Source: an uncultured Erysipelotrichaceae bacterium (GTDB lineage Bacteria; Bacillota_I; Bacilli_A; RF39; UBA660). Taken from it: DNA of 47,089 bases. The notes under the pieces were generated by a model. The model worked only from the letters and a program-made list of their open reading frames with translations. It ran no database searches and had not been told where the DNA came from. The stretch spans positions 1 to 47,089 of the forward strand of contig CACZGA010000010.1 of the NCBI GenBank assembly GCA_902780585.1. Direction: 5' to 3'. The position numbers and the translations under genes are program-made. Below are positions 1 through 19,258 of this stretch, piece after piece; the stretch's first letter is position 1, and every line of letters starts with the position of its first letter.

Positions 1-1743
1 TTTCCTTTTAATATTTTAGCTTTAGGAATTTCTGATTTTACTGTAGCACTTTTATCTTATAAACTTGATAAACCGTTTAATGAAATATATGATGATGTTA
101 GTTCTTTTAAAACAGTATTGGAGACAACCGATATTAAATCTCTTAAAATGATTATGTACTCTTTTGAAAAATATAAAGACTTTTTTGATGCTTTAGACAA
201 AAAAGGAGTTGATTTTATTCCGAAATATATTGTAGGAGGAAATTTGCTTCAAACTGGTACGGAAAATGAAGGCACTTCTGCAAAGATAATGTATCGTTAT
301 TATAGAGATTGTTCGTTTGATTGGCTTGATTCGATTATAACTTTTAAATTAATTTTAGATATTATAAATAATGGGCTTAACCTTCCAGAAATTGGTTACG
401 AATATATATCAGAGAAAGATAGAAAATATGTTCTTGCTAGGTTAAATGCATTTTTAGAAAATTTAGGATCCGATTTAATTAATCGTTATGAAAAACTACA
501 TCAAGTTGTAGATTGTATGGAACATTATTTCAAAGGATTAGAGAGAAAAAATTCTAGAAGAATACAATTGATAAAAAATCAGAGAGATAATTATGACATT
601 TATTCGGATGAATTTCATGATGTTTTTGATAAGGAAGATATTATTGATATGCCAACTGTTAAGCGTGCCTTGAGTCTTATGCCAAAGACGGATACTAGAA
701 TTCGTGTATCTTTTTTAAAAGAGGTTTTTAAGCATAATAAGCCATACTATAAGAGAATGCAAAAAAAAGCTGGCTCTATGTCTTCGTTTGAACATAATGT
801 AGCTGTATTATTGGATAGTAACGGGGTGTCTCCAGCAAGTGTTAATCTTTCTCAAATGCGAGAGAAAAATTATGATAGAATTAAGTCTTTACTCCTTAAA
901 TTAAAAGGTATTACGCTTGATGAATCTGTTTTTCTTTATGCATTACATGTTTGTACGGCGGAACACGTTGTGGCTATTGAAGCAAAAATAAAAGCTGGTA
1001 TTTTGACAGAGGAAGCTTTGAATGCATATCCGGATTTGTTTGTTGAGAGTAGTGATGCATATAAAACGTTGGTTGGGAACATTGATATTTTAAACAAATG
1101 TAGAATTAATCCAACTAATTTTGCTGATAATTCTGAGGTGTTAGTTGAACATAAAGATTTAAAAGAAAGCATTGGAATTTTAAACGAATATGGTCTTAGT
1201 TTAGGTGGAAGACAGGCTGATGAAGTTGATTATCAATTTTTGCTTAGCCCCAGACTTAGAGAGTTGATTGATAAATTAATTGAAGTTGGTTTGAATGAAT
1301 ATTTAGACAATGATTTGAACATGTTAAATGAAAGAGAAGAAAGACTTGATCGTTTAAGGGTATTAAATAGTAGTGGCTTAAAACCTAATTCTAAGGAAGA
1401 AGCTTTAAATATAGTTAGTAGGCGTGTATTTAGTGTGCCAGATGAATTGTTAGGTGAATACTTTAATGCTAAACATGAGCTTTATGTTTCTGATAATCAA
1501 CCTGTTAGTGATGAGATTGGAATATCATCGATTCCTGAACTAAGAAGTTATATAACACATCCTCGATGTATACAGATAGATGGTTTGTATTTCTCTCTAC
1601 CAAAAGTTTTAAGAAATTATCGAAAATATCCTACTGTTGAAGAATCTATTTTTAGAGCATTAATATGCGATCGTATTTTATCCGATGATGAAATTATTGC
1701 TTTAAAAAAGAAAATAATGGGAGATGTAAAATATTACTCTTAA
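1..1743 (+). CDS. Alpha-helical repeat protein, 5' end outside window
   Basis: The frame is open from base 1, so this gene enters from the left; the TTG at 118 is only an internal codon and no ribosome-binding site precedes it. At least 580 codons are present and the stop is at 1741-1743. I do not recognise a named family. Between about 793 and 1422 the protein shows seven units of about 31 residues, each with a helix of the form hxxLxxxG followed by I, V or L: NGV, KGI, AGI, CRI, YGL, VGL and SGL recur at spacings of 28 to 35 residues. Several units continue with a second helix after a PxL- or NxxxL-like turn. This is how alpha-solenoids such as mTERF or TALE-like proteins look, which often bind nucleic acid; that function is inference. 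No signal peptide or membrane segment is visible in the part present. Confidence 0.8.
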   Translation, partial: FPFNILALGISDFTVALLSYKLDKPFNEIYDDVSSFKTVLETTDIKSLKMIMYSFEKYKDFFDALDKKGVDFIPKYIVGGNLLQTGTENEGTSAKIMYRYYRDCSFDWLDSIITFKLILDIINNGLNLPEIGYEYISEKDRKYVLARLNAFLENLGSDLINRYEKLHQVVDCMEHYFKGLERKNSRRIQLIKNQRDNYDIYSDEFHDVFDKEDIIDMPTVKRALSLMPKTDTRIRVSFLKEVFKHNKPYYKRMQKKAGSMSSFEHNVAVLLDSNGVSPASVNLSQMREKNYDRIKSLLLKLKGITLDESVFLYALHVCTAEHVVAIEAKIKAGILTEEALNAYPDLFVESSDAYKTLVGNIDILNKCRINPTNFADNSEVLVEHKDLKESIGILNEYGLSLGGRQADEVDYQFLLSPRLRELIDKLIEVGLNEYLDNDLNMLNEREERLDRLRVLNSSGLKPNSKEEALNIVSRRVFSVPDELLGEYFNAKHELYVSDNQPVSDEIGISSIPELRSYITHPRCIQIDGLYFSLPKVLRNYRKYPTVEESIFRALICDRILSDDEIIALKKKIMGDVKYYS

Positions 1744-14360: not shown

Positions 14361-15074
14361 ATGGCATTTGATTGGAAAAACTATGTGCCATCAATTGGTG
14401 ATGAAAGATACAAAAAATCCCCTTTTAAACCTGCTATTGATTTTTTAAGGGTTTTGTACTATGCCCATTATTCTGTTGACCCTAGTATTAATCATGTAGA
14501 CGATAATGTAGTCTTTTATGACCCTTCTTTACCAATTTATGGAGAGTGTTATTCTGTTAGAGGGAAATTCCCTTTCAGGATTTTTTTTCAAAGTAAGTAT
14601 GATGGTTGTTTGCCCGATGATACTTGGACTATTGCTATAAAAGTTGATGATAAAAATTTAAATGATGATAATTTAATTTTTGCAATTTCTTTAATTAATA
14701 GATTTACTGGGAAAAATCCTAATTTAATTGTTTCAGATATGAAAGAATCTAAATCCGAAACTACAATAGCCTTTATTTCTAAAATGGATTTAATATGTGA
14801 GGCTATGGGGGAATCAAAATCTTATCTTGATTTCTTTGAACGTTTATGTGACAATAATTGCCGAAATATAATTTATATTGGTGATGATATGAAAATAGGT
14901 GTTAGTGAAGATATCATAAATAAAGTAAATAGTGATTTTGTTGAGCGTCATAAAGAAATATTATCTGATGTTTTCCATATAAAATTAGATGAGCTAGAAA
15001 TACGTAATGAATTTATAAGAGGGAAGCTATTAATTAAAAAAGGTGGGCCATATATTCCTAATGTAAATGAATAA
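14361..15074 (+). CDS. Unknown 237-residue protein
   Basis: The protein is not recognised. It is a soluble alpha/beta protein without signal peptide or membrane segment. It has a hydrophobic strand region (TWTIAIKVDD, LIFAISLIN), a mid-protein segment with several Asn and Asp, and a lysine-rich end. It is preceded by AGGTGAT and by its own promoter, and it sits between ruvB and queA, genes that are normally adjacent in Firmicutes. queA begins 36 bases later without an obvious promoter and is probably read through from here. Confidence 0.8.
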   Translation: MAFDWKNYVPSIGDERYKKSPFKPAIDFLRVLYYAHYSVDPSINHVDDNVVFYDPSLPIYGECYSVRGKFPFRIFFQSKYDGCLPDDTWTIAIKVDDKNLNDDNLIFAISLINRFTGKNPNLIVSDMKESKSETTIAFISKMDLICEAMGESKSYLDFFERLCDNNCRNIIYIGDDMKIGVSEDIINKVNSDFVERHKEILSDVFHIKLDELEIRNEFIRGKLLIKKGGPYIPNVNE

Positions 15075-15110: not shown

Positions 15111-16136
15111 ATGTCTACGGATGATTTTGATTATGATTTACCAGAAGAATTAATTGCCCAAACACCTTTAGAGGTTAGGGATTCTTCAAGGTTATTAGTA
15201 TTAAAAAGAGATACTGGAGAAGTAGATCATAAGAAGTTTACAGATATAATTGATTATTTAGAAGAAGGGGATACTTTAGTTTTAAATGATACAAAAGTAT
15301 TACCTGCTAGAATTATTGGGGTTAAAGAAGATACTGGAGCAGTTGTTGAATTGTTACTTTTAAAAAACTTGAAAGATGATTTTTGGGAATGTTTAGTTAA
15401 GCCTGCTAGAAGAATAAAAGTTGGAACTATTGTGTCTTTTGGAAATGGTGAATTAAAGGCTAGATGTACGCAAGAACTAGATGAAGGTATTCGTCATTTT
15501 GAGTTAATATATGATGGTATATTACTAGAAATACTAGAAAAGTTGGGTACTATGCCACTACCTCCATATATTCATGAAAAATTAAAAGATCAATCTCGCT
15601 ATCAAACTGTTTATGCTAAAGAAGTGGGTAGTGCTGCGGCACCTACGGCAGGGTTACATTTTACGGAAGAATTACTTGATAGAATTGAAAAAAAGGGTGT
15701 AAATATTTGTAAGATTACTCTACATGTTGGATTAGGTACTTTTAGACCGGTTACTGTTTCTAATGTAGAAGAGCATGAAATGCATAGTGAGTATTATACT
15801 ATGAGACAGGAAGTTGCAGATTTATTAAATGAGACTAAGAGAAAAGGAAAAAGAATAATTGCGGTAGGGACAACAACTACTAGAACACTTGAAACTATAA
15901 TGAGAGATCACGAAGAATTTGTTGAGACTTCAGGATGGACTAATATTTTTATTTACCCTGGGTTTAAATTTAAAGCTATTGATGCTTTAATTACAAATTT
16001 TCATTTACCTAAGTCGACATTAGTAATGTTAGTTAGTGCTTTTTCTTCAAAAGAAAATATACTAAATGCCTATCGTATTGCGGTTGAAGAAAAATATAGA
16101 TTCTTTTCGTTTGGAGATGCGATGTTTATATATTAA
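15111..16136 (+). CDS. queA: S-adenosylmethionine:tRNA ribosyltransferase-isomerase QueA
   Basis: This 341-residue enzyme adds and rearranges the ribosyl group of SAM on preQ1-tRNA to give epoxyqueuosine, the second last step of queuosine synthesis. The family motifs are all present: [66 protein letters not shown] and [17 protein letters not shown]. The gene looks intact. GGAGTGAT precedes the ATG. Its usual partner tgt lies downstream, but is separated by two unusual genes and is broken. Confidence 0.96.
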
Positions 16137-16160
16137 AAGAGTTTAAGAACTCTTTTTTTT
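16135..16160 (+). terminator. Terminator after queA
   Basis: AAAAGAGTT (16135-16143), loop TAAG and AACTCTTTT (16148-16156) form a hairpin continued by T to 16160. The T-tract runs into the -35 of the next promoter. Confidence 0.92.
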
Positions 16161-16187
16161 GATTTATATAGCTTTTTGTGATATAAT
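16159..16187 (+). promoter_or_regulatory. Promoter of the double Gre-like gene pair
   Basis: TTGATT (16159-16164), a 17-bp spacer and TATAAT (16182-16187) with TG (16179-16180). The first two bases of the -35 are the end of the queA terminator T-tract. Confidence 0.88.
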
Positions 16188-16210: not shown

Positions 16211-17194
16211 GTGAATTTACGGCAATCTTTTCCTGGACAATTTATTACTATTTCGCCTGCTGAATTATCTGCGCTATGCCAAGAGCGAAATCAAATATTG
16301 TTTCGTTTGAGAAAAGGGACTGACGATTATGATAATGATTTGGAGCGATTGTTTGAAATCAATCAATTTTTATCTTCTTGCCGAATTATATCTACTAGCG
16401 AAATAAGAAATGATTCTATTGGTTTTGGGACATCGTTTGTTGTCTCAGATTTATTCGGAGATACAAATTATGTTTTCACAGAAGGAACCTTAGCATCTAC
16501 TGAGTTTTTATCATATATGGATTATTCTACTTATGGATCTTTGAATGTTAATGATTATGTTGATTTGCCAGAACAAAATGGGTTAAAACTCGTGGGGAAA
16601 ATTACTAGTATTCAGCGAGAAATGGATACTTTAATTATTAAGGATATTGGAGATTTTTGTTCACGTATTTCTAGAGAAGCTTCAAAGGCCAATGCTGTGC
16701 TCAGAAAGGATTCTGTTGTTTATGATAGACATTATTCTCTTACACCTTCACAACTAATGCTTTTGCAAAATAATTACGCTACGTTATTAGCAAACCCAAG
16801 AGATCGTAGTATGGTTAGCAAGTTAGGATATGTAACTACACTATTAAAAAGTGATGTCGTTAGATTTTTATCTGAAGGCGAAAGCATAGGGTTTGGGTCT
16901 CTTGTTAATCTTGAAGTAACTGATAAAAAGAGAAATTGTTCTAGGCGTTTTGTTGGAGAATATATTGCGAAAGCCGCTTCATATGAGACTATAGATAACT
17001 ATATAGAGTGGATTTCTAATATGGGATATAGGCTTTTTGGATTGAAAGCAGGAGATAGTTTTGAATTTAGGAAAGCAGGAAATCTTTATTCTGTAAAAGT
17101 GTTGGGGGTAAATAATACTTATCCTCGGCAGATAAAAAATGGTGCTGTTACGGGTAGATCTATCGAGGCATTTCAATATATCAAAAGATTTTAA
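16211..17194 (+). CDS. Double GreA/Rnk-like protein, first paralogue
   Basis: This 327-residue protein looks like two fused, divergent GreA/Rnk-like units. The second unit (about residues 175-293) has a short helical hairpin starting SLTPSQLMLLQNNYATLL, then a GreA C-terminal-like fold: SIGFGSLVNLEV (225-236), RRFVGEY, then WISNMGYRLFGLKAGDSFEF (257-276), which parallels the SPxxxALLGKxxGD motif of GreA. The first unit (about 12-137) repeats this: ISPAELSALCQERN, SIGFGTSFVV (69-78), STYGSLNVNDYVDL. The two IGFG motifs are 156 residues apart, about the length of one GreA. The hairpin is shorter than in GreA, as in Rnk, with an acidic turn (TDDYDND). RNA polymerase binding is inference. The start is GTG at 16211 after GGGAGTGG. 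Confidence 0.75.
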   Translation: MNLRQSFPGQFITISPAELSALCQERNQILFRLRKGTDDYDNDLERLFEINQFLSSCRIISTSEIRNDSIGFGTSFVVSDLFGDTNYVFTEGTLASTEFLSYMDYSTYGSLNVNDYVDLPEQNGLKLVGKITSIQREMDTLIIKDIGDFCSRISREASKANAVLRKDSVVYDRHYSLTPSQLMLLQNNYATLLANPRDRSMVSKLGYVTTLLKSDVVRFLSEGESIGFGSLVNLEVTDKKRNCSRRFVGEYIAKAASYETIDNYIEWISNMGYRLFGLKAGDSFEFRKAGNLYSVKVLGVNNTYPRQIKNGAVTGRSIEAFQYIKRF

Positions 17195-17219
17195 ATTATT
17201 GTTTTAAGGGAGTGATAGT

Positions 17220-18206
17220 ATGGAAGCTTTTTATGGTTTTTATGATGGTGATTATATTGTTATATCGGCACCTGAGTTACAGGCGTTATGTAGTGAGAGA
17301 AATGAAATACTATATCGTTTAAAGCCTGATTCTCCTACATTTGATAAAGACGTTGAGAGATTATATGAAATTAATGCGTATTTAACTTATGGCAGGCTTC
17401 AATTTGCTAAAGAATTACAGAAAGATACTATTGGATATGGTACTAAATTTAATGCGTGGCTTCCTGAGTGTGAATTAAGTGAATATATTTGTACTGAACG
17501 ACAAATTGTGCCTGAGAGTACTTTTTTAAGTATGGATAAAGCTACTTATGGTACTGATTTTTTTGGTAGAACTGGTGATGATATTTTTAACTTACCTGGT
17601 GAGGGTGGGGAGGCAATGCTTTTTGGTATTATAGATAATCCTGTGAAATACTATATTAAAGGAGATATTAGTGCTAACAGCCGGTGTTGTTCAATGGGGA
17701 AAGCAGATATTAAGAAGCTAAAACAAAATCCAGCAAAATATCGTAGGTTTTTCTCTATGACTAGGTCTCAATTGATACTTTTACAAAATGAAATTGATTT
17801 TTTATATAGTCTTGAGCCTACTCAACATATAAAAAATTTACTTACTGTTCGGAAGAGTTATATTGATAGAGGGATAATTGATTGTTTACCAAGTGATGAA
17901 ACAATAGGGTTTGGATCACTTGTATATCTTCATGTGGTAGATGGTAAGAATATATCTAAAAAGTTTGTGGTTGAGTATGCGCCTCGAGCTCTTTCTAAAG
18001 AGCCGAAAAATTGTTATGCTGAATGGGGGAGCCCTATGGGATATCCACTTTTAGGTTTAGATGCAGGAAAACAATTTCGCTTTTATGTAGGAAGTACACT
18101 TTATGGTGGTAAAGTATTGGGTGTTAATAATACATATGCAAGTTATCCAGAATTTTTCGACCCTTTTGGTACAACTGAAGAGGCGCGTCAAAAAGTTTTA
18201 AGGTGA
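17220..18206 (+). CDS. Double GreA/Rnk-like protein, second paralogue
   Basis: This 328-residue protein is a tandem paralogue of the previous gene: ISAPELQALCSERNEILYRL, DVERLYEINAYLT and ETIGFGSLVYLHV match it closely. It again has two units, with IGYG at 71-74 and IGFG at 229-232, 158 residues apart. The segment GSPMGYPLLGLDAGKQFRF (260-278) is the clearest match to the GreA/GreB C-terminal motif in either protein. The first half is more diverged and has an extra CC pair. GGGAGTGAT precedes the ATG, 26 bases after the first paralogue, so both are on one transcript. The function is unknown; binding at the RNA polymerase secondary channel is the obvious hypothesis. Confidence 0.75.
   Translation: MEAFYGFYDGDYIVISAPELQALCSERNEILYRLKPDSPTFDKDVERLYEINAYLTYGRLQFAKELQKDTIGYGTKFNAWLPECELSEYICTERQIVPESTFLSMDKATYGTDFFGRTGDDIFNLPGEGGEAMLFGIIDNPVKYYIKGDISANSRCCSMGKADIKKLKQNPAKYRRFFSMTRSQLILLQNEIDFLYSLEPTQHIKNLLTVRKSYIDRGIIDCLPSDETIGFGSLVYLHVVDGKNISKKFVVEYAPRALSKEPKNCYAEWGSPMGYPLLGLDAGKQFRFYVGSTLYGGKVLGVNNTYASYPEFFDPFGTTEEARQKVLR

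Positions 18207-18264: not shown

Positions 18265-19258
<994 letters not shown>

Follow-up and report, generated by a model that had tools for sequence, protein, structure and literature searches.

What is the function of proteins that carry two Gre-type modules on one chain and that are encoded twice in a row? The question is raised by a stretch of 47,089 nucleotides from an uncultured Erysipelotrichaceae bacterium (GenBank assembly GCA_902780585.1, contig CACZGA010000010.1, positions 1 to 47,089), in the following called the window, in which the initial annotation had recognized a tandem pair of double Gre-type proteins at 16211..18206. Open reading frames (ORFs), profiles and AlphaFold2 (AF2) models confirm this pair, the members of which are here named X1 and X2; both genes are co-oriented, with queA (15111-16136) on their 5' side and tgt (from 18265) on their 3' side. 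In the excerpts of the literature used here and in the following, GreA, GreB, Gfh1, Rnk, Rv3788, DksA and TraR are described as small proteins in which a single globular domain is combined with a single coiled coil. X1 and X2 have a two-module architecture that goes back to an old internal fusion, the double was later copied in tandem, and the hairpin probe with its acidic tip is lost in all four units. The features of the pair are as follows, the models being given with their predicted local distance difference test (pLDDT) and predicted template modeling (pTM) scores:

16211..17194, plus strand: X1, a double Gre-module protein of 327 amino acids with a GTG start (ORF; PF01272 above cut-off; AF2 pLDDT 76, pTM 0.79)
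16244..16621, plus strand: X1 unit 1, residues ~12-137, a shortened hairpin (helices 16-32 and 40-56) and a diverged Gre-type beta domain (AF2 secondary structure, alignment A3)
16736..17116, plus strand: X1 unit 2, residues ~176-302, a short hairpin (179-194, 199-212) and an FKBP-like Gre domain
17220..18206, plus strand: X2, a double Gre-module protein of 328 amino acids, tandem paralogue of X1 (ORF; AF2 pLDDT 77.4, pTM 0.80)
17256..17636, plus strand: X2 unit 1, residues ~13-139
17754..18128, plus strand: X2 unit 2, residues ~179-303, carrying SPMGYPLLGLDAGKQF (profile of the relatives' unit 2, 1e-17; AF2 helices 182-197 and 202-217 plus strands)

Both types of unit are Gre modules by profile, the match for unit 1 spanning the whole module, and for each type a fold match was obtained in one of the two paralogues. 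The Pfam model GreA_GreB (PF01272) matches the C half of X1 with 27.1 bits against a cut-off of 26.9, and it matches 13 of the 14 members of alignment A3 at E 0.01. X2 alone gives no Pfam Gre match and only unrelated matches among PDB sequences; it is assigned by its alignment with X1, with which it shares 36-37% amino acid identity over its length (BLASTP, E 1e-55), and by the fold match in its N-terminal unit. The NCBIfam greA model TIGR01462 reaches 31.5 bits in X1, far under its cut-off of 139, and does not match X2. By these profile and fold matches, the Gre-type fold that had been proposed for the halves withstood the check for absence of an FKBP-like Gre domain. In X1 as well as in X2, AF2 predicts the Gre layout, i.e., a hairpin followed by the domain, for either unit. 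VIA-align lists no Gre match for X1 unit 1 or X2 unit 2, in a listing that one domain can fill by itself. A normal greA elsewhere in the genome, the presence of which the initial annotation had left to be confirmed, exists as well: the only other PF01272 match of the genome is an ordinary greA of 159 amino acids, which is found on contig 15 and has the tip motif complete.

The units depart from this ordinary form in the hairpin, the length of which was counted in residues from the start-motif Leu of GreA up to the Gre domain. As reference served eight of 17 collected GreA sequences that were aligned, the other nine being left out of the joint alignment and of the unit tree. In X1 and X2 the hairpin of unit 1 has 59 residues and that of unit 2 has 52, compared to 80 in all eight GreA proteins. 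The acidic tip GDLSENAEY is present in 8/8 GreA, and its D and E are the cleavage residues of Escherichia coli GreA (PMC7527559); the corresponding columns (D41 and E44 in E. coli) are gapped in all four units of X1 and X2. Since the hairpins are shortened and the acidic tip is absent, the earlier argument against transcript cleavage holds. Among 15 related doubles from other genomes the first hairpin has kept 80-84 residues in 14, the remaining one being truncated (G157), and the second one is short in all 15 (45-60 residues). The tip motif is replaced in these long first hairpins, D being found in 2/15 and E in 3/15 at the tip columns, where the alignment is uncertain. The truncated relative is a double of the same genus (L116, 7331-8098) of which only 256 amino acids are left, with a start just before the first Gre domain, and the upstream match over the hairpin contains two stops. 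In the loop SPIA..G...GD of GreA, the S/T..G is kept in unit 1 (15/15) and in unit 2 (15/15) of the relatives; loop conservation is given here as such and carries no claim on rim-helix contacts of the kind made by GreB.

The order of events can be read from a tree of 42 units, i.e., 17 first units, 17 second units and eight GreA. All 17 second units form one clade (97/99), so that the double was, as the sequences suggest, most simply formed before these lineages split. The first units are not one clade, GreA being placed inside and the first units of X1 and X2 outside (85/68), and the tree speaks neither for nor against a single origin of unit 1. Among the 17 doubles, X1 and X2 group as sisters (100/100), and the tandem pair is therefore a later copy of the whole double; the shortened first hairpin is common to both copies. 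Because the first hairpin of the relatives still has the length of GreA and is devoid of the tip motif, the ancestral form may have been Gfh1-like with a long inactive probe, from which X1 and X2 may have turned Rnk-like, i.e., probe-less.

How such proteins might act is best seen by comparison with the known factors. As in GreA and GreB (PF01272, TIGR01462), each unit comprises a hairpin and an FKBP-like domain; X1 and X2 differ from them by two modules per chain, two chains in tandem, shorter hairpins and the missing acidic tip. The best relative of solved structure, both by profile and by fold, is Gfh1, the anti-cleavage factor of Thermus, which however has a single module with a long hairpin and acidic tip residues; Gfh1 and Rv3788 are non-cleaving competitors (PMC4598747). 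Rnk of E. coli (PDB 3bmb) combines a short hairpin with a Gre-type domain as X1 and X2 do, in one module per protein instead of two units per chain. Rnk is described from proteobacteria; its coiled coil would be too short to reach the active centre, and it binds RNA polymerase and competes with Gre and DksA (PMC4598747). Gre factors and DksA attach to the beta-prime rim helices through their globular domains (PMC7527559). HelD has an N-terminal region that is similar to GreA/B and reaches into the secondary channel (PMC7749165), HelD itself being, unlike X1 and X2, an NTPase of the UvrD-like type whose coiled coil is extended; a tie to HelD was rejected, the Foldseek match to it being non-significant (6zca, E 0.17).

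With this Rnk-like anatomy present twice over in each chain, X1 and X2 can be read as non-cleaving, bivalent occupants of the secondary-channel rim of RNA polymerase, similar to Rnk, and we give this reading a probability of roughly one half; competition and bivalency are inferred, as is polymerase binding, the latter from the domain family. In at least one unit, the Gre-type domain would dock on the beta-prime rim helices as in GreA and GreB, the short hairpin would be unable to reach the active centre, no RNA would be cleaved, and X1 and X2 on the rim would probably keep GreA out, as reported for Rnk. By its two modules, each chain would either gain avidity together with a further partner or tie two polymerases to each other.

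Several observations weigh against the reading as rim occupants. Of the double name given in the initial annotation, GreA/Rnk-like, the Gre part stood by profile for both unit types, but no Rnk model of Pfam or NCBIfam matched X1 or X2 at E up to 10. The loop proline is missing in 8/15 first and 9/15 second units of the relatives, and the loop of unit 1 is eroded to STYG in X1, where the following L and G fall into a gap, and to ATYG in X2. As the N halves of X1 and X2 are in addition far from the profile of the relatives, their unit 1 may no longer bind RNA polymerase. Non-canonical Gre genes by tgt were found by profile search in at least 16 of 193 family genomes, a sporadic presence suggesting that the proteins are dispensable. 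Finally, FKBP-like domains outside RNA polymerase, as in SlyD and trigger factor, match the models too, at lower Z. This last point leads to the alternative that X1 and X2 are repurposed FKBP-like proteins acting off the polymerase, e.g., as peptide- or protein-binding adaptors, which appears doubtful to us: the significant profile matches are to GreA or Gfh1 and not to FKBP or SlyD, and the Gre layout is predicted for all their units.

The position of the pair next to tgt raises the further question whether the neighbours point to its role. The surroundings in the window are:

15111..16136, plus strand: queA, conserved gene flanking the site at its 5' end (ORF; TIGR00113, E 7e-141)
16159..16187, plus strand: promoter-like TTGATT-17-TATAAT with TG before the -10 element, between queA and X1 (consensus match 10/12; weak)
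18265..19258, plus strand: tgt, conserved gene on the 3' side, interrupted in the assembly (tblastn pieces 18265-18507 and 18488-19252; downstream ORF 18575-19258)

No claim is made on the promoter-like site, which is weak since the scan of the region gave 15 sites compared to 12.7 +/- 4.0 by chance. In tgt, two parts, residues 1-86 and residues 115-369, are matched in different frames (tblastn); a stop separates them, and residues 87-114 are uncovered. It is the only tgt match of the genome, and the interruption may be a real loss or an assembly error. Next to queA on its 5' side lies an orphan ORF of 237 amino acids (14361-15074), for which there is no Pfam or PADLOC match, no tblastn match in 80 queA loci and only a sub-threshold NCBIfam match to RsbW; the gene on its other side we take to be ruvB.

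In the family, members contain one to three Gre units per ORF, the open multi-unit frames having 256-569 codons, and the largest array, in G091, comprises four ORFs with 3+2+1+2 units, i.e., eight units in a single place. A position 5' of tgt and on the same strand is common to the Gre-type genes of all genomes examined (27/27), a count that leaves out L036 (ordinary GreA size), L121 (a partial Gre ORF of 104 amino acids at a contig end, with no tgt in the locus) and the order-wide matches G232, G243, G256, G261, G332 and G403, some of which may be ordinary GreA. An ORF is inserted between the Gre gene and tgt in G068 (532 amino acids, opposite strand) and in G174 (197 amino acids). In six genomes queA is on a different contig and the Gre gene is still by tgt; in four of these (G054, G064, G112, G174) more than 1 kb of further sequence upstream of the Gre genes is covered, and for G040 and G120 the neighbourhood is open, as the tgt contig stops shortly beyond the Gre gene. 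Among 80 loci fetched with queA, 24 include tgt, and ten of the 24 have Gre genes in between; these ten are from metagenome-assembled bacteria, Yak_Rumen and Sheep_Ileum being named for two. In 60 stretches 5' of tgt, Gre genes were found in 15 at E 1e-5, all known beforehand, and in none of the other 45.

In wider searches, multi-unit Gre frames were seen in this one family of Bacilli only. Order-wide, 29 of 385 genomes match at 1e-12, all in the same family, and some of these may be ordinary GreA; class-wide, 11 of 395 match at 1e-15, of which three have multi-unit frames, all in the same family, and eight have GreA-sized frames (160-170 amino acids), seven of them outside the family. In a set of 5.8 billion proteins X1 retrieved one copy of 98% only and profile A2 three proteins; profile A1 retrieved no relatives from genome contigs. 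In other genomes of the family this slot, located 5' of tgt and in some cases bordered by queA on its other side, is occupied by different ORFs, most of which are unclassified and many of which lie on the opposite strand (L050-L109), with a recurring family of about 390 amino acids in L053, L057 and L068. Two genomes of one genus encode a second GreA-like ORF with GDGWHDNFAYE (L011, 1270-1821; L018, 1285-1836), and the ORF directly before it is presumably UvrD/HelD-like.

The constant position, 27 times out of 27 and in six genomes with queA on another contig, would fit a regulator or partner of tgt or of queuosine synthesis that is kept by tgt for this reason. We rate this as improbable because the Gre genes do not follow the divergence of tgt. 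The tgt genes of three of nine close relatives, L119, L124 and L190 (G422), are 65-70% identical to those of the other six (L112, L118, L120, L122, L125, L116), which are 85-97% alike; L119, L124 and G422 share 72-79% among themselves. The Gre doubles show no such division: L120 and L124 share 83% in queA, 67% in tgt and 52% in the Gre protein, the second-closest between-genome Gre pair of the set. Moreover, tgt is broken in the window with X1 and X2 open, and other ORFs fill the slot in other genomes. Across the same pairs of relatives queA is 75-85% identical; as the divergence of tgt exceeds that of queA, the sequences suggest an exchange of tgt at the site.

The Gre genes themselves change fast. 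Doubles of 11 different genomes share 19-57% amino acid identity, compared to 74-95% for queA in ten of those. The ratio of nonsynonymous to synonymous substitution rates (dN/dS) is 0.25 for the Gre doubles and 0.084 for tgt in G054-G371, 0.40 and 0.070 in G251-G054, and 0.61 and 0.043 in L122-L125; it is 0.25-0.45 in the six closest of 15 pairs of genus 54. Values up to 1.3 in distant pairs, X1 and X2 included, are saturated and were not used. Since the close pairs are below 1 yet above the tgt values, the Gre doubles are under purifying but weak selection. In G251-G054, the synonymous divergence (dS) of the Gre gene, 0.14, is lower than that of tgt, 0.37, for which reason the two may have different histories. 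That the genes are lineage-specific orphans without a function at present, decaying at a site that tolerates insertions, is in keeping with their sporadic occurrence, their speed and the truncated first unit of G157 with its upstream stops, but is very improbable given the dN/dS of the closest genus-54 pairs and the open multi-unit frames.

Fast divergence beside slow neighbours, the varying number of units and genes, and the sporadic presence, e.g., with no Gre gene between queA and tgt in L110, the closest locus by queA (88%), could also indicate a guard of RNA polymerase against phages or mobile elements, in which arrays would block or sense the secondary-channel factors of invaders and an arms race would drive change and copy number. 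As a precedent, GreA/B-C domains occur in proteins predicted to counter invaders (Kaur et al., 2021, PMC8195603), which resemble X1 and X2 in having a Gre C-terminal domain outside the classical elongation factor and in rapid evolution. In those proteins TPR, GreA/B-C and PIN are joined to effectors, whereas X1 and X2 showed Gre modules only: no PIN, TPR or effector Pfam domain is present in them or among the families listed for the 14 A3 members (E 0.01), and no nuclease or toxin domain was found. With a single chromosomal place, no PADLOC match for X1, X2 or L118, no match of X1 in phages or of L118 in plasmids and, by a pattern-based search, in viral contigs, and dN/dS below 1 in close pairs and saturated in distant ones, i.e., no direct sign of positive selection, we regard the guard as possible but unlikely. 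A label as defence system was dropped for want of a PADLOC match, and a phage or plasmid origin was rejected since matches were missing in phages for X1 and in plasmids and viral contigs for L118. More speculatively, and in our view rather doubtfully, the Gre arrays, with one to eight units in one chromosomal slot, might represent a novel type of transcription factor evolving under conflict, the doubles of which would staple two polymerases, or cap one and hold a second partner, by their rims, and act as a bivalent plug, in place of a probe, that blocks channel-entering factors of the cell as well as of invaders.

The initial annotation had called the fused double Gre form new. None of this kind, fused, tandem, arrayed and probe-less by tgt, was found in listings of the open-access literature, a result short of proving absence from print; the fold is known, and it is this form that would be the new part. 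Gre fusions of two or three modules that have dropped the probe and multiplied by tgt would mean that Gre's polymerase-docking half leads an independent life, and they make testable the question of what effect a bivalent, probe-less Gre has on RNA polymerase. The slot by tgt, in turn, is a fast-changing place in the otherwise small genomes of these Bacilli.
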